Below, piece by piece: positions 1 to 26,445 of a stretch of 33,653 bases of DNA. Source of the stretch: a virus; IMG/VR virus record IMGVR_UViG_3300046001_009045, positions 1-33,653 of that record, one strand, 5' to 3'. Both the position numbers and the translations under genes were made by a program. How positions within the stretch are numbered: position 1 is the stretch's first letter; each line of letters begins with the position of its first letter. The notes beneath the pieces are model-generated. The model was not told the origin of the DNA. It was given only the letters and a program-made list of their open reading frames with translations, and ran no database searches.

Positions 1-495
1 GAATCTACCCAGAAAGGAAGTAAATCTGCATCTAAAACTAAAATGACTCAAGTTACAGATACTGGAGGGGATAAGGGCTCGGTTGAAATAATAGGTAGTA
101 GTGAAGTAGCTGGGGAGGCAGCTAGTACCCCGGCTGAAGCTGCTGTTGCGCAATCTGATACAAGTACTGCTACTATTAGTATGCCGACTACTACTTTGAA
201 CTTAAATGCAATACAACCTGAAACTATGCAAGCAGTAGCTAATACTATAGCTGCTACGATGGTAAACACTACAACCAACTTACCGACCCTCCCTTCAATT
301 ACATATACTACTGGTACTGGCTTTTCTTCTGATGGAGTGACTGCTACGTATACTCTAGAGAAAAACGGTAGCGTTATTAAATATGTAACTAAAGCTAATA
401 CTAACGCTACGCTAAATGTAACCACCAAGGACGGTAGTCAATCAATACCTCTTAACTTCGGCGGGAAGAGTACTATAACTATAATTCAAAAATGA
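1..495 (+). CDS. Unidentified Thr/Ala-rich protein, 5' end outside window
   Basis: I do not recognise this protein. The frame is open from base 1. An ATG at 43 has no Shine-Dalgarno-like sequence before it and the upstream codons read as a normal Lys/Ser-rich coding stretch, so the gene probably begins left of the window. The visible part has a low-complexity Ala/Thr/Ser-rich middle and a C-terminal region of alternating Thr and hydrophobic residues that suggests beta structure. There is no transmembrane segment. Its stop overlaps the start of the CHASE2 cyclase gene (ATGA at 492-495), so the two are probably co-transcribed and translationally coupled. In bacteria CHASE2 cyclases often sit beside FecR-like partners; I see no clear FecR signature here, so a partner role is only a guess. 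Confidence 0.75.
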   Translation, partial: ESTQKGSKSASKTKMTQVTDTGGDKGSVEIIGSSEVAGEAASTPAEAAVAQSDTSTATISMPTTTLNLNAIQPETMQAVANTIAATMVNTTTNLPTLPSITYTTGTGFSSDGVTATYTLEKNGSVIKYVTKANTNATLNVTTKDGSQSIPLNFGGKSTITIIQK

Positions 496-2555
496 AGCAC
501 CACTATAAAACTATTGCAGTAGGTTTAATTCTATTAGTATCTTTAGTGGTACTAAGAGTTTGGGATCCGTACCCTATTGAAGTGCTCCGATTAAAGGGAC
601 TTGATTATTACCAACGTAAGCAAGAAAAGGTAAGAAGCGACAATATAGTTGTAGTAGAAATAGATGAATCCGCGCTTGAGAAGAACGGGCAATGGCCATG
701 GAATAGAGAAGTATTAGCGGAGGGAATAAAGAAGGCATTTGAAGGAGAGGCGGCGGTTGTAGTGTTACCTATTATATATGCTGAGCCAGATAGGCTAGGC
801 GGGGATCAAATATTTATTGACACATTACAAAAGGTCCCGGTCATAACATCTCAATCTGCTTCTACTAAAGGCAAGGGGGTACCCGTACCTAGAGGGGTAG
901 CTACTATTGGTAACGGCATTGAAGACTGGTTATATGATTACCCGGCAGCTATTGGACCAATTAAAGAAATTGGAGAGGCTTCAGCAGGGGTGGGTATGTT
1001 ATTAACTGCCCCGGAATTAGATGGCGTGGTAAGACGTTTACCTTTACTAATACAGATCAATAAAGAACAATACCCTACCCTACCTTTGGAAGTATTAAGA
1101 GTAGCAGGTAATGAGCCTAGCTATCAAGTAAAGATGTCTGAAGCTGGGGTACAAGCTGTAAGAGTGAAAGGCACCCCTGCTATCAAGACCGATGCTAATG
1201 CTAGAGTTTGGCTCAATTTTAAATATAAGTTTGATTCTATTCCTTACACTAAAGAGCAATGGGATGTAAAAGATAAGATAGTGGTAATAGCTTTAACAGC
1301 TGAAGGATTAGCTAATACCGTTGCAACCCCAGTAGGGGTTAACTACGGATATGAATTGAACTTACAAGCCTTACAAATGCTTATAGATGGCAATAGATTA
1401 GAGCGTCCAGCTGAGTTTGATCTATATGAAATGGCTATTGGTTTAGGTATCGGTATTATTCTAATAGCTTCCATAGCTTTCTTTAGTTATATCCCAAATG
1501 TTATAATATACCTAGTAGCTATTATATCTCCGGTATTAATCGGATTTAACATGTTTAACTCTAAAGGATATCTAGGGGACTATACTTGGATAGTATTAGC
1601 AGCTAGTATTACCTGGATGGGTGCATTATTTATGCGCTTTGTGCAAGAGTTTAAACTAAAGAATCAAATTAAAAAACAATTCGGCTCTTACGTAAACCCA
1701 ACTATAGTAGAACGTTTACAGAAAGATCCAAGCTTAATTAAGTTAGGAGGAGAGCGTAAAGAGCTATCTATTGTTATGACTGATTTGAGAGGTTTTACCA
1801 CTCTAGGGGAATCGTTTGGGGATGACGTAGAAGGTTTAACTCAGATTATGAACGATTATATGACTGCTCTAAGTATTCCAGTATTAAAAAACGATGGTAC
1901 CTTAATTAAGTTTATTGGAGATGCCTCGTTACATGTGCACGGTGCGCCTCTAGACGATCCTGACCATGCAGTCACTGCCGTGCTTACTGCTCAGCAAATG
2001 ATTAAAGCAATTGAAGGGTTTAATAAAGAGCTTACCGCTAAAGGACGTCCTCCAGTAGGTATGGGTGCAGGCGTTAATACCGGCGAGACTCTAATAGGTA
2101 ATATTGGTGCTAAGAGTAAATTCGGGTACGACGTGTTAGGTGACTCCGTCAGTACAGCAGCTCGTCTAGAAGGACAGACTAAGAGCTATGGTGTATTATG
2201 TATTATTGGACCAAAGACTAATGAGCTAGTTAAAGACAGAATCTTTACCCTAGAGCTAGATAATATAGCAGTTAAAGGCAAAACTGTTGGCTTACGTATC
2301 TATACACCTTTATTTGTATCTGATGCACATGCTGCAGCCGAATACTTGGCCGGCCAGGAATATCATAACGATATGTTAAAAGCCTATCGCGCTCAAAAGT
2401 TCGACCAGGCAATTGAGATGTGTCGAGAACTAGTAGGCGAGTTCGACGGACAAATGGATCACAGCTACGAGTTATGGATCGAACGCTGTGAAGATATGAA
2501 GAGTATAAAGCTCCCTAAAGATTGGGACGGGATCCATAGAGCTACTTCAAAGTAA
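492..2555 (+). CDS. CHASE2-domain class III adenylate/guanylate cyclase
   Basis: A membrane sensor cyclase of 687 aa that should convert ATP (or GTP) to a cyclic nucleotide in the cytoplasm. The order is canonical: TM1 at about 8-24, an extracytoplasmic CHASE2 sensor at about 30-305 (hallmarks VVVEIDESALEKNGQWPW, DGVVRRLPL, ATPVG), three TMs at about 314-334, 337-355 and 364-381, the catalytic domain at about 425-605, and the usual tail ending in a DWDG-type motif. Metal-binding Asp431 (MTDLRGFT) and Asp477 (KFIGDA) are present. Lys473 and Asp547 (YDVLGD) form the base-selecting pair expected for ATP. The transition-state Arg558 is kept, but the usual Asn is Ser554 (VSTAARLE), which could lower or change activity. 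The gene overlaps the preceding one by ATGA and the halogenase gene tail-to-tail by 14 bases. The family call is firm; product identity and the activating signal are inference. Such cyclases are common in bacteria and unexpected in a phage. Confidence 0.95.
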   Translation: MKHHYKTIAVGLILLVSLVVLRVWDPYPIEVLRLKGLDYYQRKQEKVRSDNIVVVEIDESALEKNGQWPWNREVLAEGIKKAFEGEAAVVVLPIIYAEPDRLGGDQIFIDTLQKVPVITSQSASTKGKGVPVPRGVATIGNGIEDWLYDYPAAIGPIKEIGEASAGVGMLLTAPELDGVVRRLPLLIQINKEQYPTLPLEVLRVAGNEPSYQVKMSEAGVQAVRVKGTPAIKTDANARVWLNFKYKFDSIPYTKEQWDVKDKIVVIALTAEGLANTVATPVGVNYGYELNLQALQMLIDGNRLERPAEFDLYEMAIGLGIGIILIASIAFFSYIPNVIIYLVAIISPVLIGFNMFNSKGYLGDYTWIVLAASITWMGALFMRFVQEFKLKNQIKKQFGSYVNPTIVERLQKDPSLIKLGGERKELSIVMTDLRGFTTLGESFGDDVEGLTQIMNDYMTALSIPVLKNDGTLIKFIGDASLHVHGAPLDDPDHAVTAVLTAQQMIKAIEGFNKELTAKGRPPVGMGAGVNTGETLIGNIGAKSKFGYDVLGDSVSTAARLEGQTKSYGVLCIIGPKTNELVKDRIFTLELDNIAVKGKTVGLRIYTPLFVSDAHAAAEYLAGQEYHNDMLKAYRAQKFDQAIEMCRELVGEFDGQMDHSYELWIERCEDMKSIKLPKDWDGIHRATSK

Positions 2556-4068
2556 CTGCGTTATGTACAACTGGGTAATGGTTTACTTTCCAATCTAAAG
2601 ATATAGTATTGGTAAATATATTTGTAGGAATAAGAGGGTCGTGTGCACCGTCTTTAAGTAATAGATTGTAATTATCTTCAGGGAGGGCAGCGAGTTCTTC
2701 TACTCTACGTGGGTAGAAACTCTTATTTAATATACCTTGACCTTCCATGAGCATTAACCAGCTCGGTAAACCGATATTAGTCATTGACGAGTTAAGGTAG
2801 CTATCTTCTTCTAAAGGTATATATTTGTTACGATGTATTACATCTGCTACAGTATCAACTATAGTGTTTTTAGTTCTAAACTCTTTCCAGAACGGAGAGT
2901 CGTTTCTGTTAACGTAGTAATGTAATTGAAGCCCGGCGAGTATATTATTATTAATTTTACTAAAATAGTAATTGAAGTTGTCTCTGGCTTCTTGACTGTC
3001 TTTATATAGTTCTGATAAATGACTAGTTAGTCTATCTATCATTATTACTTGTATCCATACAGAAGTAGCTTCAATTGGTTCAGTAAACCCAGCTGCAAGT
3101 CCGATAGCCATACAATTTTTAATACAAATTTTTTCATAATAACCAGCACTAAAGTTTAATATACGGGGCGAGGTTACTTCATGTCCTAATAGCGCCTCTA
3201 CTTCCTGCTTTGCTTGATCAGCGTTTATATAATCTGAATCATATACATAACCACAACCGTATCGATTACGGAGCGGTATCTTCCACATCCATCCATACTT
3301 TAACGCTATAGCATCTGTACAGTTATTAAAGTTATCTGGATCTATTTTAAGCTGAAACGGTAAAGCCTGTTTAACTGGTAAGTGCTTTGCATAACTAACC
3401 CAAGGAGATTTAAAATGCTTACCGATTATTAACCGTTTGAAACCGGTACAGTCAAATACAAAACTACAGGGTACTTGTTGCCCGCTTTCAAGACCTATAC
3501 TAGTTATATAGCCACGCTCATCATCAACAATAGAAGTAACCTTACCTTCAATTCTAGTCACCCCACGTTTAATGGCTTGCTCTCTTAAGAACTCAGCTAA
3601 TAAGTGTGCATCGAAGTGTAGAGCATAAGGTAACATCTTGTCGTGCTCTTTAGTAACGTTATTATAGGCAAAAGGGCTATTGCGTAAGTTATCATAAAAC
3701 TCGCAATTATTAATAAACGGTGTATTATTGTTTAAGTTCTGAAGTAACTTTTTAGACTGCGGGCCGCAACAGAAAGAATGAAAGTAATTTTTATCGTCTC
3801 CGTTCCAGTTTACAAAATTTATTCCTAATTTAAACGTGACGTTACATTTTTTATAAAACTCAGCAAACGGTATTTTTAGTACGTCAATTAAAAAATTCAC
3901 TAGAGCTGGAGTCGAGCCTTCACCTGCGCCTAATATACCTATCTCCTCGCTTTCTATAACTATTACTTTTTGAAGAGGCTGCGCTATTCTTCTTACATTT
4001 AACGCAGTTAGCCAGCCAGCAGCACCGCCGCCGACAATAACCAGGTCTTTACTCTTTTGTATCTCCAC
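2542..4068 (-). CDS. Flavin-dependent halogenase (tryptophan halogenase family)
   Basis: A 508-residue FAD enzyme that should use FADH2, O2 and halide to halogenate an electron-rich substrate. The dinucleotide fold GGGAAG is at 13-18 and GEGSTP at 49-54. The hypohalous-acid Lys is Lys80 (TFKLGINF). The family signature WxWxIP is at 260-265 (GWMWKIP). The catalytic Glu is most likely Glu333 (EPIEATS). All hallmarks are intact, and length fits the family (about 500-540). The start is GTG at 4068, since no ATG precedes the FAD fold, with TAAGTATT just upstream. Homologues are known in marine cyanophages, and one, VirX1, has been shown to halogenate small aromatics in vitro. The natural substrate is unknown, so calling it a tryptophan halogenase would go too far. 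Its neighbours are modification enzymes (2OG oxygenase, glycosyltransferase, carbamoyltransferase, sulfotransferase). Confidence 0.93.
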   Translation of the reverse strand: MEIQKSKDLVIVGGGAAGWLTALNVRRIAQPLQKVIVIESEEIGILGAGEGSTPALVNFLIDVLKIPFAEFYKKCNVTFKLGINFVNWNGDDKNYFHSFCCGPQSKKLLQNLNNNTPFINNCEFYDNLRNSPFAYNNVTKEHDKMLPYALHFDAHLLAEFLREQAIKRGVTRIEGKVTSIVDDERGYITSIGLESGQQVPCSFVFDCTGFKRLIIGKHFKSPWVSYAKHLPVKQALPFQLKIDPDNFNNCTDAIALKYGWMWKIPLRNRYGCGYVYDSDYINADQAKQEVEALLGHEVTSPRILNFSAGYYEKICIKNCMAIGLAAGFTEPIEATSVWIQVIMIDRLTSHLSELYKDSQEARDNFNYYFSKINNNILAGLQLHYYVNRNDSPFWKEFRTKNTIVDTVADVIHRNKYIPLEEDSYLNSSMTNIGLPSWLMLMEGQGILNKSFYPRRVEELAALPEDNYNLLLKDGAHDPLIPTNIFTNTISLDWKVNHYPVVHNAVTLK

Positions 4069-4592: not shown

Positions 4593-5237
4593 ATGGAAAT
4601 AATAAATTACAAAGGTATTATCACTATAGACAATTTTATTACCCCAGAAGAAAATAAAGTTATTACATCCACGTTTGATCCAGTTGTAGCTGATTCTATG
4701 TCTTACTATTGGCGTTTACTTATTAATGGTAATCTAGTAACCCCTTTAAGCTTAACTAGTAACAAAGGATTCTATCAACAAATTTCTACTATACCAGTTG
4801 TGGCCGTTAACTTAGCATTGTCTGACATTATTACAAGAATTACAGATATAGTTTCTGCCCCTAAGCTTAAAGTAGAAGCTTGTGGTATTGAGAAGCATAT
4901 CGAACCAATTCCTTATTATTCAGATAGTGAATGGCCTGCGTTAAAAGAGAATCAGTTTTTAGGGGTACCACTCTCCGGTACAGACAATAGCGCGTATGTA
5001 AATTATAATGATAAGTGGGTATCTAACTATGTAGGCACTCGCCTGTATAGTAGTCATATTTTCTTAAACGATGACTTTGAAGGCGGTAATATTACTTTCC
5101 CGCAACACGAATTTGATGTAGCTTCAAAAGCTAATCGCTTAGTACTTTTCCCGAGCAACCATAACTACGTTCATGGAAGCCGTCCAATGAGCAGTTCAAG
5201 ACGTATGCTTACTACTTGGTTTGAAAAGTATGCTTGA
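4593..5237 (+). CDS. 2OG-Fe(II) oxygenase-like protein with a degenerate HxD motif
   Basis: 214 residues with the prolyl-4-hydroxylase-like double-stranded beta-helix of small phage oxygenases. The C-terminal core is clear: SSHIFLNDDFEGGNITF at 153-169, then LVLFPSNHNYVHG with distal iron-ligand candidate His194, and 2OG-binding Arg204 ten residues later. The expected proximal HxD, about 15 residues before FLND, is not seen. That position reads NYND (137-140), so Asp140 may remain while His appears replaced by Tyr138. If so, iron binding is altered or lost; the gene could also be a rapidly diverged active enzyme. It is a lone plus-strand gene, and its 3' end overlaps the glycosyltransferase gene antisense by 42 bases. 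Pairing of such oxygenases with halogenases is seen in marine T4-like phages. Substrate unknown; proline or sugar hydroxylation is conceivable. Confidence 0.82.
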   Translation: MEIINYKGIITIDNFITPEENKVITSTFDPVVADSMSYYWRLLINGNLVTPLSLTSNKGFYQQISTIPVVAVNLALSDIITRITDIVSAPKLKVEACGIEKHIEPIPYYSDSEWPALKENQFLGVPLSGTDNSAYVNYNDKWVSNYVGTRLYSSHIFLNDDFEGGNITFPQHEFDVASKANRLVLFPSNHNYVHGSRPMSSSRRMLTTWFEKYA

Positions 5238-6338
5238 GTAGTCAGGCTTTTCTCGTAACGCTAAATGCAAGTCGTCGGTGTTTTTAGTAAAGTGACCTAC
5301 AACAGTGTCACTCTTAACTACATAACCGTTTGTAATAAACTGCACCCCGCCTAGGGAAATTGTAGAGTTGATCCAAAACGATATTTGCTTTTCGGTAATA
5401 GTGGGGTAATAGCGTTCTATTTGTAAAGGGTTAGTGACAAACATTATACCGCCTGACACTAAGACTTCATACGCTTTTTTCATATAGACCGCTGGGTCGT
5501 ATAGTTTATACAAATCAGTTATCATTACAAAACCAGCCGAGTTAGGAGCTAGTTTAAATATGTCTTCATTAGCTGCAACACTATAACCTTTTATCTTGCT
5601 CCAATTAAGAGCCATCTTCATCAAGTACTCATCGTGCATCGTTACGCTGTAATCTATTATCCATTTACGTAGCACTGGATCTCCAGAAGTGTTCTCTGGG
5701 TGTAGGTAGTAAATGTATAATACTTCATTAATATGATGAATGTCACCATGAATCATACTCCGGCACATTAAGTCTCCATCATCGCAGGCTTTTAAAGTAA
5801 TATCATGTCCGCCTATACTTCGGTAAAAGTCTTTACGCCACACTCTAATATGATTTGGTGCCCACCACTGCCAACTAAAGTTGCCAGGGTATGGAGGATA
5901 AGCTATATTAATAGCACAATCTTTACCCTTGTAGTTAAAAGTACTGCACCTCCACCCGTAATCTGGGCCCCAGGTGTAGGGTTCGTTATTATATAATACT
6001 AAATTATTAGAATATATAAAATCTCCTTTATCTTTATTTTCTATTAACTTTTCAACACAATTAGGTAGTAGCTCGTCATCATGGTCGACTTCTGCAAGCA
6101 GTTCGCCTTTGCCTTGCATAAACCCAAAGTTCTTAAGGGCACCGATGTTAAAGTTAGAATCAGTGTAAGGTACTATTCTTATCCACTCTTGCTGTGGTAT
6201 GACGGATATATCCGCGTCATTGTTAGGTATAATAACCCATTCGAAACGTTTATCAGTTTGTGCTGCTATGGACTCATATAAACGAAGTAATTTCGTGGTT
6301 TTATGAGTAGGAGTTATTAAGGATACTATAGGTTCCAT
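5196..6338 (-). CDS. GT2-family glycosyltransferase with C-terminal extension
   Basis: A GT-A-fold glycosyltransferase. The N-terminus shows the family strand and turn (VSLITPTHKTTKLLRLYESI), followed by the sugar-nucleotide and metal-binding acidic motif EVDHDDELLP at about residues 83-92. Such enzymes move a sugar from a nucleotide donor to a glycan, lipid or protein. The open frame reaches a TTG at 6362, but family alignment favours ATG 6338 (MEPIVSL) or ATG 6347, which overlap the preceding gene; an AGGA lies about 11 bases before 6338. The last 150 residues are not typical GT2. The stretch DPAVYMKKAYEVLVSGGIMFV resembles the second half of a class I SAM methyltransferase, but no glycine-rich motif I is seen. 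Donor and acceptor are unknown. The neighbours suggest surface or virion decoration. Confidence 0.9.
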   Translation of the reverse strand: MEPIVSLITPTHKTTKLLRLYESIAAQTDKRFEWVIIPNNDADISVIPQQEWIRIVPYTDSNFNIGALKNFGFMQGKGELLAEVDHDDELLPNCVEKLIENKDKGDFIYSNNLVLYNNEPYTWGPDYGWRCSTFNYKGKDCAINIAYPPYPGNFSWQWWAPNHIRVWRKDFYRSIGGHDITLKACDDGDLMCRSMIHGDIHHINEVLYIYYLHPENTSGDPVLRKWIIDYSVTMHDEYLMKMALNWSKIKGYSVAANEDIFKLAPNSAGFVMITDLYKLYDPAVYMKKAYEVLVSGGIMFVTNPLQIERYYPTITEKQISFWINSTISLGGVQFITNGYVVKSDTVVGHFTKNTDDLHLALREKPDYSSILFKPSSKHTS

Positions 6339-6340
6339 TG

Positions 6341-6640
6341 TTACCATTTTCCTACTGGGCAATGAGCAGCTGCAATACGGACTTTAGTCTTCATAGCGCA
6401 TCCGCATTTACTACAAACGCATTCTCTTTTAATATCTTTGACATTAGCCTCCTTAAGAAAGAACTCACAATCCCAGCACAGATCCCAGCGAGTCTTAATA
6501 ACATCTTCTGGAGCTAATATCTGACCTCTAGCAACTGCTAATTGAAACATATCTTTAGCAGTACCAACTAAATTAAAAGCCATTTCCTTAAGAGATGGAA
6601 GCTCGAGAGAAGCAGAAAGCGGTTCCGTATTAGTGCTCAT
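6341..6640 (-). CDS. Cys-rich putative zinc-binding small protein
   Basis: 99 residues with seven cysteines in the C-terminal half: C55xxC58 (LCWDCEF), then C74xC76xxC79xC81 (CVCSKCGC) and C94 in a terminal HCPVGKW. The spacing suggests one or two zinc knuckles. The N-terminal 50 residues are helical and lack cysteine. I recognise the general look of a small phage protein with a terminal CPxGKW, but know of no assigned function. It lies between the carbamoyltransferase and GT2 genes and overlaps the latter's start region, so it probably belongs to the same transcript. A nucleic-acid-binding or adaptor role is only a guess. Confidence 0.85.
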   Translation of the reverse strand: MSTNTEPLSASLELPSLKEMAFNLVGTAKDMFQLAVARGQILAPEDVIKTRWDLCWDCEFFLKEANVKDIKRECVCSKCGCAMKTKVRIAAAHCPVGKW

Positions 6641-6643
6641 GCA

Positions 6644-8284
6644 TTAAAACTTTTTAACAAGTTCTAAACAGTAGTATTCGTCTGTAACTCTGTTTTTAGT
6701 AATAAAATGCTTCTCAATAACTGCTCCATCCAGTTGAGTGTTCTTTAATATATTGAACACGTCTTTTACGGTAGTAAGAATTGGCTTACCGTTAACATTA
6801 AACGACGTATTGAGTAGTACGCCTACCCCGGTTCGCACTTCCATCTCAGTTAACAGATCATATATATAAGGATTTTGTTCTCGAGTAACAGTCTGCACCC
6901 GTGCAGTATTATCAATATGAGTAATTGCTGGTAGCTTCTCTCTCCATTCTTCTCTTACCACTGGTGCAAATGTCATCCACCGAGACTCATCTTCCCATTC
7001 AAAGTATTTAGATACATCTTGAAGACGTACAATAGGTGCAAACGGACGATACCACTCTCTATTCTTGACTTTTTTATTTAAGATATCTTTCATATCTTTT
7101 ATCATCGGGTTACATATAATACTTCTATTGCCAAGACCTCTAGGGCCAACTTCTGATTGACCCCGAGCGATACCTATAATTTTCCCTGCTGCAATCTCTT
7201 TCACTACAGTATAAACATCAGTAGAGTTTACGTAGTAGTTACTCGTATTAATATATTCTGGTAGCATACTAATATCTAGCAATGGAAGACCGGCATAAGT
7301 CACATCGACTGGCTCAATTGGTTTAATATGATTTAATAGCATACCCACTGCAAGACCAGAGTCATTAGGTACCGGACCGACAAACACTCTCTTATCTAAC
7401 TCTTTTTTAATGCGTGTGTTAAGTAAGATATTTAAAGCGCAGCCACCAGTTAAGCAAATAGGTAAATGTTTGTATATATCTATGTTAACTTTAGTTGATA
7501 CTATATTTAAAAATACATTCTCCCAAGCGCACTGCAAAGTAGCAGCAACGTCGTAAGCAATTTGACCGCTTAATCTCTGGGTATTATTTAAAAACGGTAT
7601 ACCGGTAGCATCTTGTAATAACTGAACAATAGGGGTATGATTATAATGACCATGCATGTTACACGCCCATACAAACTTTTCAAACATAGGTAACCATTTT
7701 ATATTAACCGTACCATAAGAAACTAGTCCCATCACTTTACCTGGATAAACTAAATGTCCTTCTTGAAGAGCCTGAAGCTTTATATCTTCTAAGTAGTGCC
7801 CTATAATCATATAAGGAAAGCCAAAATCTAAATTAAAGTTAAACACCTGTTCAAGACCTCGACTCCGTTCTCCGTGATATACATTGAACGTACCGTCATT
7901 ACCACCGCCGTCAAAAGATATTATTAACGCTTCTTCGTACGGAGATTGATAAAAGCTACCGCCTGCGTGACTTAAATGATGCTTAGTTGTTATATAGTTA
8001 TCAGCTTCAATTAAACAATTAATATCATAAGGTACCCCGTTGATGTTAATCCGAGTATCGCCAATACTAATACAGTTTTCAAATTTAGAAAAACCAGTGT
8101 AGCTCTTTATGTAGTCAAGTACTTGTTCTAGTACGAAGAAAGGGTAACGCGGTACTTTGTATTGAGTTAGCCCGCTATTTTTATAGCCTAGAAAACGCTC
8201 TACTTCTAGTACTAGTAGTATTTTTCCTTTATGCTCGACTGCAAAAGTGCTATTGTGCGAACCAGTAAATGCGATGTTTGCCAT
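6644..8284 (-). CDS. O-carbamoyltransferase (NodU/CmcH/TobZ family)
   Basis: 546 residues, the usual length for enzymes that transfer a carbamoyl group from carbamoyl phosphate, via carbamoyl-adenylate, onto a sugar hydroxyl. The N-terminal Kae1-like domain has the metal-binding His pair in HHLSHAGGSFY (His102/103 and His106), Asp125 in ISFDGGGNDG and LTGGCALNILLN (279-290). The C-terminal YrdC-like region has GQSEVGPRGLGNRSI (375-389), REWYRPFAPIV (409-419) and LLNTSFNVNGKPI. All family landmarks are intact. Known members act on Nod factors and antibiotics; homologues occur in marine T4-like phages without a proven substrate. It is followed closely by the Cys-rich and GT2 genes and preceded by the sulfotransferase gene, all on one strand, which fits a shared role in modifying a glycan. 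Confidence 0.93.
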   Translation of the reverse strand: MANIAFTGSHNSTFAVEHKGKILLVLEVERFLGYKNSGLTQYKVPRYPFFVLEQVLDYIKSYTGFSKFENCISIGDTRININGVPYDINCLIEADNYITTKHHLSHAGGSFYQSPYEEALIISFDGGGNDGTFNVYHGERSRGLEQVFNFNLDFGFPYMIIGHYLEDIKLQALQEGHLVYPGKVMGLVSYGTVNIKWLPMFEKFVWACNMHGHYNHTPIVQLLQDATGIPFLNNTQRLSGQIAYDVAATLQCAWENVFLNIVSTKVNIDIYKHLPICLTGGCALNILLNTRIKKELDKRVFVGPVPNDSGLAVGMLLNHIKPIEPVDVTYAGLPLLDISMLPEYINTSNYYVNSTDVYTVVKEIAAGKIIGIARGQSEVGPRGLGNRSIICNPMIKDMKDILNKKVKNREWYRPFAPIVRLQDVSKYFEWEDESRWMTFAPVVREEWREKLPAITHIDNTARVQTVTREQNPYIYDLLTEMEVRTGVGVLLNTSFNVNGKPILTTVKDVFNILKNTQLDGAVIEKHFITKNRVTDEYYCLELVKKF

Positions 8285-8287
8285 AAA

Positions 8288-8971
8288 TTAATATCCAGCT
8301 ATTTTTAAACACTTATTATAAAGTTCGTAATCTTCTCTATTAAGTTCGATTAATTTTTGTCTCAAGTCAGACGGTATTTCATACTTTTCTTGATAGTTAG
8401 TTTTAGTAGGGTTCACATTGTGATTATTGTAAGTTTTAAAAACAGACATATTTGTGCCCATAATTGAATCATAACGCGCTATTTCTTTATTGAAATGCTC
8501 TGATATGCCTATAAACTTAAAATTATCTAGCGGTATGTTTAACTGATCCGACATAATATTGCTGCTGTATGGCCTTGTAGCAAAATATTCTAAACTTACT
8601 GAGTCATATTTTCTATGTACTTTTGCTATGTTACCATAACGACTTGGGTCTGTGAGTAGGTAATAGTAATAAGATGAAATTAACCTTTCAATAGGATCTC
8701 TTATCCATGTTATATATGCCGCGTCTGGGTAAATCGGTTTAAACTTATCCGCTTTGAAATGCCCCGTAATAAGCTTTGCAGTGGGGTTTGGCTTCAAGGG
8801 AACAACACCAGGCAACCCTGGTCGTTCATTAATAAACTTACGATCGGAATGATTATTCCAACCATGAGATTCAACCACTATAACTTCTTCTTGTTTTAGC
8901 TTTAACTCTGGTATTAATAAGTTTTTAAACGTAGTACCAGCAGTCTTAGGTATATGTACAAAGATAAGCAC
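8288..8971 (-). CDS. PAPS-dependent sulfotransferase
   Basis: 227 residues of the Sulfotransfer_2 type, which moves sulfate from 3'-phosphoadenosine-5'-phosphosulfate to a carbohydrate hydroxyl. The 5'-phosphosulfate loop is HIPKTAGTTF (residues 6-15) with Lys9. The 3'-phosphate motif is WIRDPIERLISSYYYYL (89-105) with Arg91 and a Ser near 99/100. A GHF at 70-72 supplies the likely catalytic His71. The start is GTG at 8971, with an AGGT about 12 bases upstream; no in-frame ATG precedes the PAPS loop. It lies three bases before the carbamoyltransferase gene on the same strand. A possible PAPS-making enzyme is at 14385-15155. The acceptor is unknown; a glycan made by the local glycosyltransferases is an attractive but unproven candidate. 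Confidence 0.9.
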   Translation of the reverse strand: MLIFVHIPKTAGTTFKNLLIPELKLKQEEVIVVESHGWNNHSDRKFINERPGLPGVVPLKPNPTAKLITGHFKADKFKPIYPDAAYITWIRDPIERLISSYYYYLLTDPSRYGNIAKVHRKYDSVSLEYFATRPYSSNIMSDQLNIPLDNFKFIGISEHFNKEIARYDSIMGTNMSVFKTYNNHNVNPTKTNYQEKYEIPSDLRQKLIELNREDYELYNKCLKIAGY

Positions 8972-9005
8972 GTTAACACTTACCTATCTTAAACTAAACT
9001 GCTAC

Positions 9006-9335
9006 TTACGAGCCGAGTTTAAACTGCTGACCGCCCGCAGCACTTACTGCAACATATTGCGAGAAAGGAGCAATTACGGTTGTATATACAAATCCAGGAA
9101 CTGGGGTTCCACCTGCAGAAGCAAAGCCGGTATAAGTAATAACAGAACCAGTAGTTGCAATAACTACCCCGCCGCCGCCAACAACATACCCAGGGCTACC
9201 TTCAGTGGTGTAAAACGCACCAGATGCACCGCCTGTAGCAGTGATCGTTATGGGTGTATTATCACCGCAAAGGTTATAAGTCGCGGAGAGTGCTCCGCCA
9301 GCGCCATAACGAAATTGATATCTTGAGCATGCCAT
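9006..9335 (-). CDS. Unidentified Gly/Thr/Ala-rich small protein, possibly virion-associated
   Basis: 109 residues, not recognised. Composition is heavy in Gly, Ala, Thr and Val with very few charged residues. Repeated short beta-like stretches (ITITATGGASG, VVGGGGVVIATTG) resemble small beta-rich virion or fibre-tip proteins. Two Cys are in the first 25 residues. There is no signal peptide. The ATG at 9335 is preceded by TAAGTATA and, further up, ATAAATA. It is the first gene upstream of the sulfotransferase-to-GT2 run. The virion assignment rests only on composition and the late-type upstream motif. Confidence 0.75.
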   Translation of the reverse strand: MACSRYQFRYGAGGALSATYNLCGDNTPITITATGGASGAFYTTEGSPGYVVGGGGVVIATTGSVITYTGFASAGGTPVPGFVYTTVIAPFSQYVAVSAAGGQQFKLGS

Positions 9336-9342
9336 AATATAG

Positions 9343-9358
9343 TATACTTACTATTTAT
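9343..9358 (-). promoter_or_regulatory. TAAGTATA plus ATAAATA motifs
   Basis: On the minus strand ATAAATA (9352-9358) is followed by TAAGTATA (9343-9350), whose core ends nine bases before the ATG at 9335. ATAAATA matches the core of T4 late promoters (TATAAATA). This is one of the better late-promoter candidates in the window. Confidence 0.45.
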
Positions 9359-9362
9359 GGTC

Positions 9363-9641
9363 TTATTTATTGAAAGATTGCCCACCGACTCTCCATACTG
9401 CTGAACCTATTCCGTTCTGGGAGTTTAGCTCAGAGTTTGGATGGTAGCGTTTAATGGTAGCGCTAATATTTTCGAAGATCTTCTCATTGTTACCCCATAT
9501 TTCTAGACCTTGATTGCGCTTTGGTTTAATAGCTTCATTGTAATCAACATGAAGAAGCATATGTTCCTTACCAGAAGCCTTATAAGCAACCTTGCATTTA
9601 TGGCCATTCAATATCTTTACTAAATCCGGATGTGGTTTCAT
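9363..9641 (-). CDS. Unidentified small protein
   Basis: 92 residues, not recognised. It is basic and rich in Asn, Lys and His, with no TM, signal or cysteine cluster (one Cys at 16). It starts at ATG 9641, with AGTAAAT about 12 bases upstream. It is the last gene of the run that includes the AbrB-like, QueD-like and HAD genes. The first residues (MKPHPDLVKILNG) resemble in style the start of the basic protein at 11767-12069 (RIHPELLKILNS), so the two may share an N-terminal element. That is a visual impression only. Confidence 0.7.
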   Translation of the reverse strand: MKPHPDLVKILNGHKCKVAYKASGKEHMLLHVDYNEAIKPKRNQGLEIWGNNEKIFENISATIKRYHPNSELNSQNGIGSAVWRVGGQSFNK

Positions 9642-9683
9642 TACATTGATTTACTAACCAAATCATACTTTTCAACTAATACC

Positions 9684-9893
9684 TCATTCCTTTTTATTGA
9701 TCTTAGTTAAGATCCAGCCATCTCCTTCTGGGGTCCAGAGTATAGTATCTCCAGCTTTCCACTTTATAGAATCCATTAGGTCGTCAGGAAAGGTAATAGA
9801 GATATCATCAGTACCTGCAACGGATTCAATACTAAGAAGCCAATGCTTTGTAGCTTCTTTCTTTTTAGTTTTTTTCTTAGTCATAATAGCCAT
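9684..9893 (-). CDS. AbrB/SpoVT-like small DNA-binding protein
   Basis: 69 residues. After a Lys-rich leader (residues 4-14) comes a swapped-hairpin AbrB-like pattern: DDISITFPDDLMDSIKWKAG, then DTILWTPEGDGWILTK. Proteins of this type are transcription factors or antitoxins, and short versions are common in marine phages, where their role is unknown. No toxin partner is visible next to it. Either Met1 (9893) or Met4 (9884) could be the start. It lies 11 bases downstream of the QueD-like gene on the same strand. Confidence 0.7.
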   Translation of the reverse strand: MAIMTKKKTKKKEATKHWLLSIESVAGTDDISITFPDDLMDSIKWKAGDTILWTPEGDGWILTKINKKE

Positions 9894-9904
9894 AAAAAGA
9901 TTTA

Positions 9905-10468
9905 TTAACCGAGTAGTGTACTATAAAACGCTTTAAACTCTGGAGACCACTCTTCAGTAATACTGTTAGAAAAGTTTATAGAGCTAAGATTGGCTTTAGG
10001 AAACTGACACACTCCTTCATCACACATCTTATACTGTGCGTATCCGGTATCAGTTTCGTGTACAATAGCTGAGAACATTTCTGCTCCTGTATTAACAATT
10101 CCTTCTCTTTTAAGTTGTGCAAGAGCAGCTCTACCGTATGTAAAGAACATCTTAGCTTGCATCTCAGCAGTAGATGAAAATGGTGCTATGATCCAACGAG
10201 CATTAGTCTTTGTAATATAATCAACCTCGCCTGCTCGTTCTTTACAGTCCCAAACCATATGAGCATGATCGAATGCATCTACAAAAGGATGGAAATACTT
10301 TTTAACAACCCCGAAGTCAAGTACCATTTGTGCTTGATCAGGGGTGTTACCAATAAACAATAGCTCTAACTTATAGCTATGTCCATGAATGTTTTGAGAG
10401 CAGCGCCTAGTGTAAGCGTTAACCACTCTGTGACTCATTTCGTATTTGAATAGTTTTCTAATGATCAT
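9905..10468 (-). CDS. queD: QueD / 6-pyruvoyl-tetrahydropterin synthase family protein
   Basis: 187 residues of the T-fold PTPS family. QueD turns 7,8-dihydroneopterin triphosphate into 6-carboxytetrahydropterin on the route to preQ0. Visible landmarks are zinc ligands His13 (YEMSHRV), His28 and His30 (NIHGH), nucleophile Cys23 (RRCSQNIHGH), the AFDHAHMV segment with Asp67/His68/His70, and pterin-anchoring Glu139 (HETDTGYAQY). It is longer than typical QueD (about 120-150) because of inserts around 75-95. Phage queD genes usually serve 7-deazaguanine DNA modification or feed host tRNA queuosine. No queC, queE, folE or DNA-inserting transglycosylase is in this window, so which applies cannot be seen. 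It follows the HAD phosphatase gene by 12 bases. Confidence 0.88.
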   Translation of the reverse strand: MIIRKLFKYEMSHRVVNAYTRRCSQNIHGHSYKLELLFIGNTPDQAQMVLDFGVVKKYFHPFVDAFDHAHMVWDCKERAGEVDYITKTNARWIIAPFSSTAEMQAKMFFTYGRAALAQLKREGIVNTGAEMFSAIVHETDTGYAQYKMCDEGVCQFPKANLSSINFSNSITEEWSPEFKAFYSTLLG

Positions 10469-13405: not shown

Positions 13406-13413
13406 AATACTTA
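13406..13413 (-). promoter_or_regulatory. TAAGTATT motif overlapping the preceding stop codon
   Basis: Minus-strand TAAGTATT. Its first three bases are the TAA stop of the glycosyltransferase gene at 13411. The core ends seven bases before the lipoprotein ATG at 13400; an AGGG lies almost against the ATG. Confidence 0.4.
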
Positions 13414-14136
13414 TTTAAACGCAGAGTGTTTCTTATGAAACTTCTCGTATACTGCACTATTACTCTTGGATCCGTTTCCACCTGGTTTCACTGTGTAAAC
13501 AAACGTCGCATTAGGATTTTTTCTAATCTTGTAGCCAGCTTCACTAATCCGGGCCCAATAATCCCAGTCTTCTATAGAGTTTAACTCCTGATCAAAGAAA
13601 CCAACATCAAGACACTTAACTTTATGTACTACCCCGGATACAAAGATGCAGTTACCTTCGAGTAGTTTTTTAATACCAGGGAACTCTGGGTAGTCAGCAA
13701 TACCATAAGGAACCGCTTTAGTGCCATCAACAAACCGGTGATCCGGTGCAGCGTATACCATATCTGCTTCGTTAAAGACTGACCCGAGTAGCGTTAATGC
13801 TTTCACTTGTTGTTCGAGATAATCTGGTGCCCATACATCATCACTATCACAATACGCGACTAGATCATAACTAGGGCCGGTAGGATCTCTTACTATCATA
13901 CTAAGAGCGCAATTGCGAGCTGTACTCACACCGCCATTAGGTTTGTAACAAAAAGTTACTTTTGACATTAACTCTGGGGTCCATTGAACTTCATGTGCAC
14001 GGTTACCTTTAGTAGAACCATCATCTATTAAATAGAGGTGCCAGTTAGTATAAGTCTGGTTTAAAATGGATTGAACCGACGTTACAAGGAGATCTCTCTC
14101 GTTGTAGTATGGCATTACGATTGCGACTTTATTCAC
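13411..14136 (-). CDS. GT2-family glycosyltransferase
   Basis: About 241 residues, a compact canonical GT-A enzyme. VAIVMPYYNERDLLVTSVQS opens the nucleotide-binding fold, then LIDDGS, and the metal-binding YCDSDDVWAPDYL at about residues 100-112. Near the C-terminus SIEDWDYWARI matches the ED-type catalytic-base and acceptor loop of the family. The frame reaches a TTG at 14151, but GTG 14136 (VNKVAIVMPYYN) fits the family start and overlaps the upstream stop (GTGAATAA). ATG 14115 would delete part of the first strand. It should transfer a sugar from a nucleotide donor; donor and acceptor are unknown. It lies downstream of the APS-kinase-like fusion gene and upstream of the lipoprotein gene on the same strand. 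Confidence 0.9.
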   Translation of the reverse strand: MNKVAIVMPYYNERDLLVTSVQSILNQTYTNWHLYLIDDGSTKGNRAHEVQWTPELMSKVTFCYKPNGGVSTARNCALSMIVRDPTGPSYDLVAYCDSDDVWAPDYLEQQVKALTLLGSVFNEADMVYAAPDHRFVDGTKAVPYGIADYPEFPGIKKLLEGNCIFVSGVVHKVKCLDVGFFDQELNSIEDWDYWARISEAGYKIRKNPNATFVYTVKPGGNGSKSNSAVYEKFHKKHSAFK

Positions 14137-14383
14137 TTGGAGCGTGTTCAATTAAAGCTTTACTAAGTGTGAAGCAACCCTCTCTATCCAGTACAATTTG
14201 ATCTCCATAAGGCTTTCCGTGTCTGAGTATTTGCCATATATACCGTAGTTTTTGCTTCCATGATAAGGTGCTGTCCTGTCCATAACCTCGTTCCCATATA
14301 GATAGATACAGACTATCTTCATCTGCTTCTACCATAAGACCTTCAGAGTGACAAGTGCATTTAATAAAGACTGTTTTGTTCAT
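14129..14383 (-). CDS. Unidentified small protein
   Basis: 84 residues from ATG 14383, which follows the upstream stop by one base (TAACATG). The open frame extends further to 14440, but that would overlap the fusion gene by 56 bases. Three Cys are present (KCTCHSEG near the start, GCF near 70). The mid-part, YLSIWERGYG then a Trp-rich helix, suggests a compact mixed fold. I recognise the general style of a small phage protein but no function. It is coupled to the glycosyltransferase gene by an eight-base overlap. Confidence 0.72.
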   Translation of the reverse strand: MNKTVFIKCTCHSEGLMVEADEDSLYLSIWERGYGQDSTLSWKQKLRYIWQILRHGKPYGDQIVLDREGCFTLSKALIEHAPSE

Positions 14384-14384
14384 G

Positions 14385-15155
14385 TTAGATTTTGAGTTCG
14401 TTGCGTATTTTTGTAGCAGAGATATCTCGGGTACTTTCATCTAGTGTAATTTGCTCGATTTTATACCCTACGTCTCTTCCGTAAAATATGTTGGTAATGT
14501 TAGGCACTCTAATTATATTATATTTACCTTCATAATCAATCATTCCTTTACGAATATTCTGTTCTACTTCCTCATACGAAAAAGGATTCTTTTCATCAGT
14601 ACCTTGAGTGTCTCTAATAGCTATACAAGCCTGGCCAACCCGGTTAATAGCCTCTACAATAAGCCTCTTGTGTCCATCATGGAAAGGTTGATAACGACCG
14701 AGCATATAAGCGGTAGGGAACTTAGAGTTAAATGTCGGTATAAGAGTCTTCTTGATTAAGTTAGCCCAGTAAAGTGGAGAGCCTTCATTAGTTACTTCTA
14801 TATTAAATTGCTCTGGAGCAGTAAACATCTTAGTGGTATCTGCAAAGTCTCTACATGGTGTTCTGTTAATCCAAATTACAAAAGCATCTTTTACACCGAA
14901 TGCGTTTCTAGATTCGGGAGTAGGGCATATAAAATCGGCAATAGCGTATTGTTTGGTGCGTACTACAATATTACAAAGCACTCCCATTCGTCGAGCATGC
15001 TCGATTCTATCCTCAGGCTTGAAGCCAAGGTCTTTGTTCACTTCTTTACGGATTTCGTCCGCATTGAAATGAACCGCGTTTAACATTTTGGCCAACTCTA
15101 TAGCAAGAGTTGTTTTACCGGCGCCCGGTAAACCCATAATGAGAATTTTCTTCAT
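14385..15155 (-). CDS. APS-kinase-like / nucleotidyltransferase fusion
   Basis: 256 residues in two domains. The N-terminal P-loop kinase (1-about 140) has Walker A GLPGAGKTT (8-16), and NADEIRKEVNKDLGFKPEDR at 31-50 closely follows the adenylylsulfate-kinase signature (DGDN..R..LN.DLGF..EDR). Such kinases make PAPS from APS. The C-terminal domain (about 148-256) is an HxGH nucleotidyltransferase, with GRYQPFHDGH at 153-162 and ISATKIR at 245-251, closest in style to NadM/NadR adenylyltransferases. Kinase-first order is the reverse of NadR and the same as in animal PAPS synthases, although those carry a true ATP sulfurylase. PAPS would serve the sulfotransferase at 8288-8971. NAD-salvage or another nucleotide role is equally open. 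ATG 15155 has TAAGTT eight bases upstream. Confidence 0.85.
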   Translation of the reverse strand: MKKILIMGLPGAGKTTLAIELAKMLNAVHFNADEIRKEVNKDLGFKPEDRIEHARRMGVLCNIVVRTKQYAIADFICPTPESRNAFGVKDAFVIWINRTPCRDFADTTKMFTAPEQFNIEVTNEGSPLYWANLIKKTLIPTFNSKFPTAYMLGRYQPFHDGHKRLIVEAINRVGQACIAIRDTQGTDEKNPFSYEEVEQNIRKGMIDYEGKYNIIRVPNITNIFYGRDVGYKIEQITLDESTRDISATKIRNELKI

Positions 15156-18575: not shown

Positions 18576-18661
18576 TGGTGCCCAAGGCCGGACTCGAACC
18601 GGCACGTCCTTTCGAACAACAGATTTTAAGTCTGGTGCGTCTACCATTCCGCCACTTGGGC
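18576..18661 (-). tRNA. trnL: tRNA-Leu(UAA), CCA encoded
   Basis: 86 bases with acceptor GCCCAAG/CTTGGGC, discriminator A and an encoded CCA at the 3' end (18578-18576). The T arm is GCCGG-TTCGAGT-CCGGC. The class II variable arm carries a 4-bp stem (GTTC-GAAA-GGAC), as expected for leucine. The anticodon loop CTTAAAA (18630-18624) gives anticodon UAA at 18628-18626. It would read UUA and UUG, common leucine codons in the surrounding genes. It lies tail-to-tail with the membrane coiled-coil gene, and no other tRNA is seen nearby. Confidence 0.96.
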
Positions 18662-22306: not shown

Positions 22307-22522
22307 ATGAATAACTTCATTGCTATTATAGGTTTATATGACGAGAATACTACAGAGCAAATAGCTTTGAAAGAAATCGGTATCCAGGCTAGAGATGAGT
22401 ATGAAGCCCATAAAAAAGCGATTTATAAATGCGACTTACGTGATAATCAAATAGTACTAAAGATATTTGAAGCTACTGGCCGTAAACTTAAGTTCGACTT
22501 CCAAAAAGGCTTTAACTCTTAA
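22307..22522 (+). CDS. Unidentified small protein
   Basis: 71 residues, not recognised. The N-terminal strand ([10 protein letters not shown]) and the charged helix [15 protein letters not shown] suggest a small alpha/beta fold. There is no signal or TM. It is another lone plus-strand gene, whose last four bases overlap the end of the large virion gene on the other strand. Confidence 0.7.
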
Positions 22523-25500
22523 AGGTCGTTATTTGGTTGCGGCAGTGTTCTGTTGATTCGAGGAGACACTAATTGTAGCATGTCTAGCTGGGTATTATAT
22601 AACTTAGTTAGCACTCTATTAATTACTGAAGATGTTACAAGCTCGTTGCTATGAATATAGCTATCTTGAGATACGCTAAACGATTTTACGAGATCGGTAC
22701 CGCTTAGACCGGTAATAGTAAAGCTAGAAGCACCGCCATTAGTATTGATTAAGTTGCCATAACGGTCAAGATTAATCTTATATTTGTACTTTATTGCTTT
22801 ATAAAGTACTTCATGATTCTGTAATAAGCGCATAATGCTCTTATTATAAACCCAGTCTTGTACAAATTCTTCTTTATTAATACCTACAGACGATAACGGT
22901 AATACTAAGCTGTTTACAGTATCTGAGTCGAACAGATCTAGTGTATCAGGTATATCTACGTATTTAAATATTCTCTTATTAGTCACTACATAGAAGTTAA
23001 GTCTGTCATCAATAAAGCCCGTGGTGATATCTTCTACGCTACCAAGACTAGACTTACTTGGATCTGTTAAACGATTAAGTGCAGCGCCGTTAGTAAGGTA
23101 CTTATAAACATTACTACTTGTAAGAAAATATAAAAACGCTCCTGTAGGATCAATTACCATTTTCTTTATAACGGTAGTTGATTGAATGTTTTGACTTGCA
23201 TCAACATGCTCTAAATTATTAGGAACATCAAAGGAATTAACTAATTCGCTATTAGAGTTAATTTCAAATACTTTATATGGACTCTCTAAGTAGTAGTTGG
23301 TTGGGGTGGGTAAATTATTAGAGAGATCTGAATTGAAGCCGTTGTTACCTAGGGCTTGAAGCTTAAAATCAGTATATTTTGCACCAGAAGCAGCGAGGTA
23401 GGTTACTGTTAGAGGTGCACTATACACAGCACTTAACATTACTGCGCTAGTTAATTGAGAATAACTTTGCCCGCCTGAAAGTAAGCCGTAAAGTGCAAAA
23501 GCAGAAAGTACGTTAGTAGTATTATTTTTTAGTCTTAACCCGTCATGGTCAAAAATAATACGATACACTGTAGTGTTTCCGCCTACTACCCCAAGCGCAC
23601 TTAAGGATGTTATAACCGGGGCTACGGGTGCAAACGTTTTTGCGAGTACAAACGTATTTTCGTTAGCTTTATTAATTTCAATACGCTCTGTACTATATGC
23701 ACTTAAAGCATCAACATATAAAGTCTTAACCCAGCTTAATGCAGTATTATACACTTTAACGCAACTATTAAGACTGTCGCAAACGTATACTAAATCGTTG
23801 TATGCTTTAATCTCGGTAGGTACATTGAAACCAGTATTAAAAGTACGGGTACCAGATACTCCCCCTACTTGACTAATAGTTAGTAATTTAGAATTTATTA
23901 CACTATTATCATTCCCTTGTGGGGGCGGTAGAATAGAAATTCCAGCTCTATATACTGTATCGTTATCTAGTATATAGAGCTGATTATTAAGTACATCAAT
24001 TGCACTAATACAATTAAAATTAGGTATATTATCTCCAAGACTAGTTGCGCTCAATACAAGTGTATGACGCCAATCGTTTGTACGAATTTGTATATGGTCT
24101 GGTACACTAGCTGATAAACTATAAGCAATATAGTTATAATAATCTGGAGCAGTCTTACTAGTGAAACGATAGGACTTAAAATCTTTAATATTACCATCTG
24201 CAATACCCACTGCACTTATAGATTGAAAAGAATTATCCCAATTTAAACCATCGATATCGGTTTTCCATGCAAATGCAGAGGCATTAACGGTACCTACTGA
24301 AGTATTAGCGCATAATTGCGCACACCACTCTATTAATGAAAGTTCATTATTAAGCTTAAGAACTTGAGAGATATTTTTAAGGTAATTAAAATTGTCGTTT
24401 AATTTACTAAAAGAACTATTAATAACATCACTTACTACCCACTCATTTGAACCTACAAGCACATCGCTTAAACTATACGGTAAGATTGGAGTTTGAGTAA
24501 CTGGGTCAAAGTAACTATCTATATCATATGTAGGTATAGTATCTTTTACGTACAATCTATTTGTAAGAGTGCGAGGATCTGCCTTCCCTACAGATTGACT
24601 ACCCACTCTTGCAGATATACTAAAATAAGAAGTGCCGGGTGCTGCTGAAGGGTACGTATAAAGTAAAAAGTTTTCGCCGAACCCGTTTGCAATATAACTT
24701 TGTTGCTGCCAGTCAGCAGATAATGCTCCATTTTTAGCCCAGAAAATATCGTACGCGTTTATAAACTTACTTATTGGGTAGATACTTTCTATCCATACTG
24801 GTGTACCGGTTTGCACTACTACCCAAGGTGTATAAACTGATAGCTGAGCGGGTACCGGGGTCGGTGTTACTGTTGGAGTAGGTGTTATCGTTGGTGTTAC
24901 CGTCGGGGTCGGAGTCGGAGTGACCGTGGGAGTCGGAGTCGGGGTAGTAGTAGGGGTCGGAGTCGGCGTTGCGCCAGGTGGTGGGGTCGTTGTAACCGTG
25001 GGCGTCGGCGTCGGTGTTACGGTAACTGTCGGTGTTACAGTCGGGGTCGCTGTAACCGTTGGGGTCGGTGTCGGGGTCGGGGTCGCTGTAACCGTCGGCG
25101 TCGGAGTCGGGGTAGCAGGGTTTTGTGCAAACATCGCCATCATTTGCACATTACTACTAATCAGTACGCTTGTATTCTGACTATAAATATTTGCTATTGC
25201 TGCACTTCCAGATACTATTCTCCAGTATGAAAATACGTAACCATTTACTGGTACTGCATCTATTGTATAGTTACCAGGGGATACATTATAAATTGGATTA
25301 CCGCTATAATTACCGTTAAACCCGACCTGTAAACCACCAGTACTATTTAGTGCCTGTACAATATAAATTGGTGGTGTGAAAGTCGGGGTCGGAGTCGGGG
25401 TAGGGGTATGAGTAACTGTAGGAGTCGGGGTCGGGGTAGGGGCTTGAGTTACTGATACGTTCCAATATATGTACCCAGACTGCGCCCCATTTGCATCATT

Positions 25501-26436
25501 AGACCAGGCTCTAAATTGTACTGGGTAAGTGTAGTTAAGATTCTGATCAAAAGCGTTTAAAACGTTACAATACTGACTCACCATTGGCCAGCTACCCGTA
25601 CCACGCGGTAAAGCTGCAAAAGGCTGGTAACCAGAATTATTAATATTAACGTCTATATGTACATCTTGTAATCTACCCCAAGTCTCTGTATCAGGATCAG
25701 CCCCGAGCGCATACACGATATAATTTGCACCAGTACCATTGACAACAGTAGCCGTTGGGAACCCGCTATAAGGCTCAAACGATATTGCTGGGATAGCATT
25801 AATGTTTATTGTCTGTATTCCAGTATAAATTTTTTGTCCGTAATTATCTTCGGCCCATGCACGCCATTGTACTGTTGTGTTACTACCGATACTAATGCTT
25901 ACTTTAGGGTTACCACCATTAGTGTGGTTTGTTCCTAGAGAGCCTGAGTCTGCAGCTTGTTCTACCCACGCTGAGCCGTTATAATATTCTATTACAACCG
26001 CTACTAAAGTAGATACCCCACCAGTCGCTGCATTAGCTGAAACGGTATATGCTACCCCTGTGTTTACTGTAGCAGTAGGTAACTGTAGCGCTACAGATGG
26101 TGGCGCTGGATCTTCAGCAGTAATTGTTATTGTAACATTACCGGTCGAGTCATGGTAGCCGTTATTGTATATATCGTACTCTATTGTACCGGTAGCAGTA
26201 AAAATAGTGCTAGTATAATTTGAAGTAGTTTCAGTATTTTGCGGGTTAGAATTATTATTAAAATAATTAGCTAACTCGGATAGAACAGTAAGAGCATTAT
26301 TTTTAGACTGAGTAGATAATGATGAACTATTAATAGCATTAGTTATATCATTAAAGATGGGGGTATAAAAGTACCACTCGTTACTACTAAAGTTATATTC
26401 AATCTGACTAGTAGCTGTTGTATTAAGAGATGCCAT
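22519..26436 (-). CDS. Large fibre-like virion protein with Pro-Thr repeats, InlB-like module and NHL-like region
   Basis: 1305 residues, probably a tail-fibre or adhesin-type structural protein. The N-terminal third (about 80-330) has Ig-like beta stretches ([20 protein letters not shown]). Pro-Thr blocks lie at about 332-353 and 442-530, flanking an InlB B-repeat-like module (about 357-437; [10 protein letters not shown]). Further on, [18 protein letters not shown] and [18 protein letters not shown] look like NHL/beta-propeller strands. The C-terminal 120 residues include helices ([20 protein letters not shown]). The tripeptide LSA/LSG recurs. No enzyme motif is seen. ATG 26436 has AGTAAATA about six bases upstream, overlapping the next gene's stop. 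Virion location is inferred from size, repeats and the run of similar genes. Confidence 0.85.
24850..25112. repeat. Pro-Thr-coding tandem repeat block
   Basis: Short GT-rich units on the plus strand (GGAGTCGGGGTC-like, 6-12 bases) code for TPTPTV-type peptides on the minus strand. The codons vary at third positions, so this is not a simple microsatellite. A smaller block of the same kind is at 25378-25442. Confidence 0.9.
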
Positions 26437-26445
26437 TGGTTATAT

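Follow-up and report, generated by a model that had tools for sequence, protein, structure and literature searches.

A CHASE2 class III nucleotide cyclase of an aquatic phage: linkage to a curli-type cassette, a phage-only active-site variant and a sensor/enzyme mosaic

Why does an aquatic phage carry a membrane-bound sensor cyclase of bacterial architecture, and to which signal might such an enzyme respond? The question is raised by a gene near the start of IMG/VR record IMGVR_UViG_3300046001_009045, a linear phage contig of 33,653 bases, which is referred to here as the window. The features of the gene and of its upstream neighbor are as follows:

1–495 (+), C-terminus of a secreted FecR-domain protein, 163–164 amino acids, cut at the contig end; matches the last part of L005:6793-8004 at 100% identity
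492–495 (+), ATGA shared by the stop codon of FecR and the start codon of the cyclase gene, CAAAAATGAAG
492–2555 (+), CHASE2–three transmembrane helices–class III nucleotide cyclase, 687 amino acids (Pfam PF05226 and PF00211, phrog_35576, AlphaFold2 model)
495–563 (+), N-terminal membrane helix, residues 2–24 (AlphaFold2)
537–1448 (+), CHASE2 sensor domain, residues 16–319 (Pfam)
1416–1685 (+), three membrane helices and signaling-helix linker, residues 309–398 (AlphaFold2)
1659–1682 (+), recombination breakpoint region between two phage ancestries, residues ~390–397 (sliding identity, conflicting domain trees, AU tests)
1758–2282 (+), class III cyclase catalytic domain, residues 423–597 (Pfam Guanylate_cyc, CyaB fold match)
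1782–1784 (+), metal-binding Asp431, found in all 113 viral and all 80 bacterial relatives
1908–1922 (+), base-selecting Lys473 and metal-binding Asp477, both invariant
2130–2132 (+), Asp547 at the base-recognition position; 58 viral sequences have Asp, whereas 54 viral and 80 bacterial relatives have Ser/Thr
2151–2153 (+), Ser554 replacing the transition-state Asn; 58 viral sequences have Ser, whereas 54 viral and 80 bacterial relatives have Asn
2163–2165 (+), transition-state Arg558, invariant

An intact sensor cyclase gene in a phage genome

The open reading frame starts with ATG and contains no internal stop. Pfam identified CHASE2 (E = 3e-40, 138.8 bits against a cut-off of 26.3) and Guanylate_cyc (E = 2e-15), and phrog_35576 covers residues 3–654 (E = 4e-181). 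Since this family spans nearly the whole protein, phage homologues are already present in the PHROG library. The AlphaFold2 model (mean pLDDT 86, 22-sequence alignment) contains helices at residues 2–24, 309–330, 333–358, and 364–398, corresponding to a single membrane helix at the N-terminus and three more after the sensor domain. Together with the Pfam positions, this gives the order membrane helix, CHASE2, three membrane helices, cyclase. The C-terminal tail WDG..RATSK is kept in the majority of viral relatives and in many bacterial ones. The architecture given in a preliminary description of this DNA, including the conserved tail, was thus confirmed. Using Foldseek, the model was matched to the catalytic domains of CyaB, Cya2, and CyaC (TM score 0.88 for 3r5g). 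The structures of CyaB (3r5g), Cya2 (2w01), and CyaC (1wc0) share the catalytic fold, the metal-binding Asp residues, and the Lys with the phage cyclase, but these enzymes have other sensors and an Asn in place of Ser554.

Because this domain architecture is typical for bacteria, a bacterial gene mis-joined onto a phage contig had to be considered. However, two further contigs cover the cyclase gene with both flanks at 99.81% (L004, 10.5 kb) and 99.95% identity (L005, 9.0 kb) and show identical junctions, by which a mis-join is excluded. The viral homologues also form one clade against all bacterial ones in both domains, and the gene is present in cultured phages. The mis-join reading is refuted by these results and has practically no probability left. 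The preliminary assignment of a CHASE2 class III cyclase to a phage genome, with both gene ends joined to phage DNA, therefore holds. The dN/dS ratio between relatives is about 0.08, indicating that the gene is under purifying selection.

The remaining window carries phage-like cargo according to PHROG matches (Nol-like carbamoyltransferase, QueD-like protein, kinase, and tryptophan halogenase). Surface- or metabolite-modifying cargo is encoded on the minus strand by genes for a tryptophan halogenase (2542–4068), a Nol-like carbamoyltransferase (6644–8284), a sulfotransferase (8288–8971), and two glycosyltransferases (5196–6362 and 13411–14151). A QueD-like 6-pyruvoyl-tetrahydropterin synthase (9905–10468, −), a two-domain kinase/nucleotidyltransferase (14385–15155, −), and a tRNA-Leu with the anticodon taa (18576–18661, −) were also found. 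Two large proteins with long Pro-Thr repeat tracts (30169–32337 and 22519–26436, both −) are probably tail-associated. The tail-like genes at 22519–29919 gave no DNA-level match to known phages.

Linkage to a curli-type secretion cassette

Of this cassette, the window contains only the end of the FecR gene and the entire cyclase gene. The nearly identical contig L005 includes the upstream region and contains, in one orientation, csgF (4714–5163, E = 2e-16), csgG (5055–5960, E = 5e-47), a curlin-like gene (5989–6789), the FecR-domain gene (6793–8004, 403 amino acids, Pfam FecR E = 2e-9), and the cyclase gene (8001–10064). L005 thus comprises all elements of a curli (type VIII secretion system, T8SS) module with FecR and cyclase; the curlin-like protein, which has no Pfam match, was named from its position and a weak phmmer similarity. 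The ATGA overlap suggests translational coupling of the FecR and cyclase genes, which are probably translated together, and a 4-nt overlap of this kind was seen in 23 viral loci. Among the 60 viral loci with at least 6.5 kb of upstream sequence, csgG and FecR lie upstream in the same orientation in 51, whereas six others have the two genes on the other strand (57/60 in total); csgG was undetected in three (L136, L189, and L204). The viral loci were collected in two scans seeded with the window cyclase gene, so that they represent a sample of the relatives of this gene rather than of all phages. In L037-L040, L176, L181, and L198, the cassette is a variant in which csgG and FecR are encoded on one strand and the cyclase on the other. 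Three contigs of jumbo-phage size with a T4-like major capsid protein (Gp23) carry the csgG-FecR-CHASE2-cyclase cassette as well (L152, L158, and L169 with 383, 337, and 338 kb, respectively); the papers cited here report the cassette for smaller pelagiphages.

The cassette itself is already described. A phage T8SS module with FecR and adenylate cyclase is known from pelagiphages, where it was reported to be expressed in the ocean and to originate from Alphaproteobacteria, and FecR and cyclase were stated to be absent from bacterial T8SS operons (PMC9599517, mSystems 2022). CHASE2 is not mentioned in that study, and two further papers discuss the curli genes but not the cyclase (PMC7029224, PMC9004378). 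The podophage version of the module has a histidine kinase before csgF (PMC9599517); L005 has no plus-strand gene of such size 5' of csgF, as judged by size only. Annotated homologues are located at the cassette end in four Melnitz isolates (about 46% full-length identity, QZI94387.1) and in HTVC008M (39–40%, AGE60353.1). The statement in the preliminary description that no characterized phage example was known can therefore not be maintained, as the pelagiphage cyclase was described in 2022 (PMC9599517). The gene family and the order csgF-csgG-curlin-FecR-(curlin)-cyclase are shared with these pelagiphages, but in the window virus no second curlin gene separates FecR from the cyclase. In two Acinetobacter phage MD-2021a records (CAKLQH020000011.1 and CAKLQF020000009.1), which are possibly bacterial contigs, a class III cyclase annotated as cyaA has 27.6% identity to the window cyclase domain.

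The best bacterial homologues, sampled mostly from Pseudomonadota, are mainly alphaproteobacterial and show about 30–33% identity over the full length. In a tree against bacterial CHASE2 cyclases, as envisaged in the preliminary description, the viral sequences form one group for the CHASE2 and the cyclase domains alike. Bacterial CHASE2 cyclases such as CyaD1, CyaD2, and CyaK of S. meliloti share CHASE2, the three transmembrane helices, the class III cyclase, and the tail with the phage protein, and they too are often located beside a FecR-domain gene. For 28 of the 80 bacterial CHASE2 cyclases, such a gene was found at a distance of up to 10 kb (one match weak), and the adjacency has been reported for Campylobacterota (PMC9239204). 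None of the 80 loci has csgF or csgG adjoining the cyclase, and CsgF was absent from the 44 genomes searched that encode bacterial CHASE2 cyclases. In the class of the best match (Afipia, an alphaproteobacterium), CsgF exceeded the cut-off in five of 385 genomes, and neither FecR nor cyclase was found within ~9 kb of these five CsgF loci. A bacterial curli operon with FecR and CHASE2 cyclase as donor was thus not found in these loci and genomes; cassette calls relied on HMM profiles built from phage genes, by which distant bacterial csgF, csgG, and FecR may be missed. FecR and CHASE2 cyclase form a bacterial pairing in its own right, since the 28 loci combine them without csgF/csgG, and in this sample the joining to curli genes was seen only in phages.

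The cyclase might also raise cAMP and reprogram host metabolism without dependence on the curli cassette. The three loci without detected csgG would fit this reading, as would the wide distribution of Crp-family cAMP receptors in bacteria (cNMP_binding in 10 of 14 control genomes). The linkage to csgG and FecR in nearly all loci and the translational overlap with FecR argue against it, and we regard it as improbable.

A phage-only active-site variant on a mosaic protein

Of the residues typical of CHASE2 class III nucleotide cyclases, the metal-binding D431 and D477 as well as K473 and R558 are present; K595 and K597 are retained, too. The preliminary description had recognized both metal-binding Asp residues and the Lys/Asp base-selecting pair (K473 and D547), which were found as stated, and its call of an adenylate cyclase with ATP as substrate stands as a prediction. 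It had also called the cyclase complete. This applies to the architecture but overstates the active site, since Ser554 takes the place of the catalytic Asn in the motif GD.VN..(S/A)R; residue 557 is Ala and not Ser. The missing Asn represents a variant rather than an exclusion from the family, because membership rests on whole-length homology, but it lowers the claim of full activity. In class III cyclases, this Asn is implicated in positioning the sugar and in reducing the energy of the transition state (PMC7384201), and Asn and Arg are reported to be essential in a mammalian cyclase (Yan 1997, cited as reference 37 in PMC7384201).

Asp547 and Ser554 are strictly paired. Both occur in 58 of 112 viral homologues and neither in the remaining 54, and Asn554 is found in all other sequences, viral and bacterial. 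Among the 58 Ser-type homologues, 54 have Ala at position 557. The first nine Ser-type sequences group together in a single clade, so the strict pairing may go back to one event in evolution instead of repeated co-variation. The pair was absent from all 109 bacterial relatives checked. These comprised the 80 bacterial CHASE2 cyclase loci and the 29 readable top matches of a search of 299 genomes of the phylum with a Ser-type domain profile, which all had Ser/Thr and Asn, and a degenerate DNA pattern for the site gave no match in 240 genomes. In these searches, a bacterial donor of the Asp/Ser site was not found. The window cyclase is of the Asp/Ser type like that of Melnitz and unlike that of HTVC008M.

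The two halves of the window protein differ in their closest relatives. Over residues 25–310, it shares 71–78% identity with the Asn-type members of its CHASE2 clade (e.g., L007 and L011) but only 32–37% with L026-L031. Over residues 386–600, in contrast, the identity is 53–58% to the CHASE2-clade homologues and 91–93% to L026-L031. The switch occurs near residues 390–397, inside a stretch common to both homologue groups. In AU tests, a single Ser-type clade was rejected for the CHASE2 domain (p-AU 2e-73) and the CHASE2 clade of the window for the cyclase domain (p-AU 1e-5), p values that overstate the case for a mosaic because the groups were defined after inspection of the data. The identity pattern is nevertheless plain and shows a mosaic gene, the sensor and enzyme halves of which are of different phage ancestry. 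By this, the window gene differs from the pelagiphage cyclase. The high identity of the cyclase half next to a divergent CHASE2 half implies that the former is either tightly constrained or recently exchanged.

Of the 112 viral sequences, 58 have Ser for Asn, with Ala for Ser nearby, in the ribose/transition-state helix, as against none of 109 bacterial ones. This substitution would be compatible with a weak or dead cyclase retained as a structural or signaling partner of the curli/FecR cassette. Dead enzymes, however, usually lose catalytic residues such as the metal-binding Asp, the Lys, the Arg, and the KGK lysines, all of which are invariant across the Ser-type homologues, and the cyclase halves are far more similar than the CHASE2 halves in the comparison given above. 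A weak or dead enzyme thus appears unlikely, though it retains some weight. Given the invariant metal, Lys, and Arg residues and the low dN/dS, the Asp547/Ser554 exchange probably alters rate or regulation and does not abolish activity.

Proposed role of the phage cyclase

Cyclic nucleotides are also used in anti-phage defense, and the preliminary description had considered interference with CBASS or Pycsar. Only the shared chemistry speaks for such a counter-defense function. The protein is a membrane sensor, no linkage to defense or anti-defense genes was seen, and no CBASS/Pycsar effector or inhibitor was detected among the neighbors by Pfam and PHROG matches, which covered most, but not all, window ORFs. 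In addition, the signals of CBASS and Pycsar are pyrimidine or oligonucleotide compounds, whereas the K/D pair of a class III cyclase predicts cAMP. As the gene travels with curli-export genes instead, the proposal was set aside as very remote.

On present evidence, we somewhat favor the view that the cyclase is the signaling output of the phage csgF-csgG-curlin-like-FecR-cyclase cassette and makes cAMP. This reading draws on the linkage of csgG and FecR in most loci, the full cassette in L005, the bacterial FecR-CHASE2 pairing, the analogous S. meliloti enzymes, the invariant catalytic residues, and the low dN/dS; it is weakened by the Ser in place of the catalytic Asn, the mostly replaced adjacent Ser, the three loci without detected csgG, and the absence of a cNMP-binding protein from the phage records. 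In S. meliloti, CHASE2 cyclases transduce an outer-membrane beta-barrel signal and respond through the outer-membrane protein NsrA (PMC13001267, PMC7529298), and a CyaD1 construct without CHASE2 produced cAMP constitutively (PMC5498481). Judged from its residues and gene context, the phage protein is most likely an active, cassette-linked cAMP sensor enzyme.

In the proposed mechanism, the FecR-domain protein would, like the exported curlin-like protein, be located in the periplasm or at the pore formed by CsgG, and CHASE2 would read the state of these two proteins or a signal that passes through the pore. From CHASE2, the change might be transmitted via the transmembrane bundle and the signaling helix to a homodimeric cytoplasmic cyclase, which would convert ATP to cAMP. 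Binding of cAMP to a host receptor could then tune host surface or metabolism during infection. A phage-encoded receptor was rejected, and the receptor would be that of the host, because a search of 15 phage records, Melnitz and HTVC008M among them, revealed no cNMP-binding protein.

New here are the phage-only active-site change and the natural sensor/enzyme swap. More tentatively, phages could have evolved an Asp547/Ser554 cyclase subfamily that is still active with altered kinetics, regulation, or product and is swapped between CHASE2 sensors, so that curli-type export reports to the infected cell by a second messenger of phage origin. Curli cassettes are frequent among aquatic phages, and a constrained sensor cyclase with a phage-only active site at the cassette end makes cAMP a direct, testable read-out of what the cassette senses or does. 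If the Asp/Ser enzyme is active, it would also test whether class III cyclases really depend on their conserved Asn.
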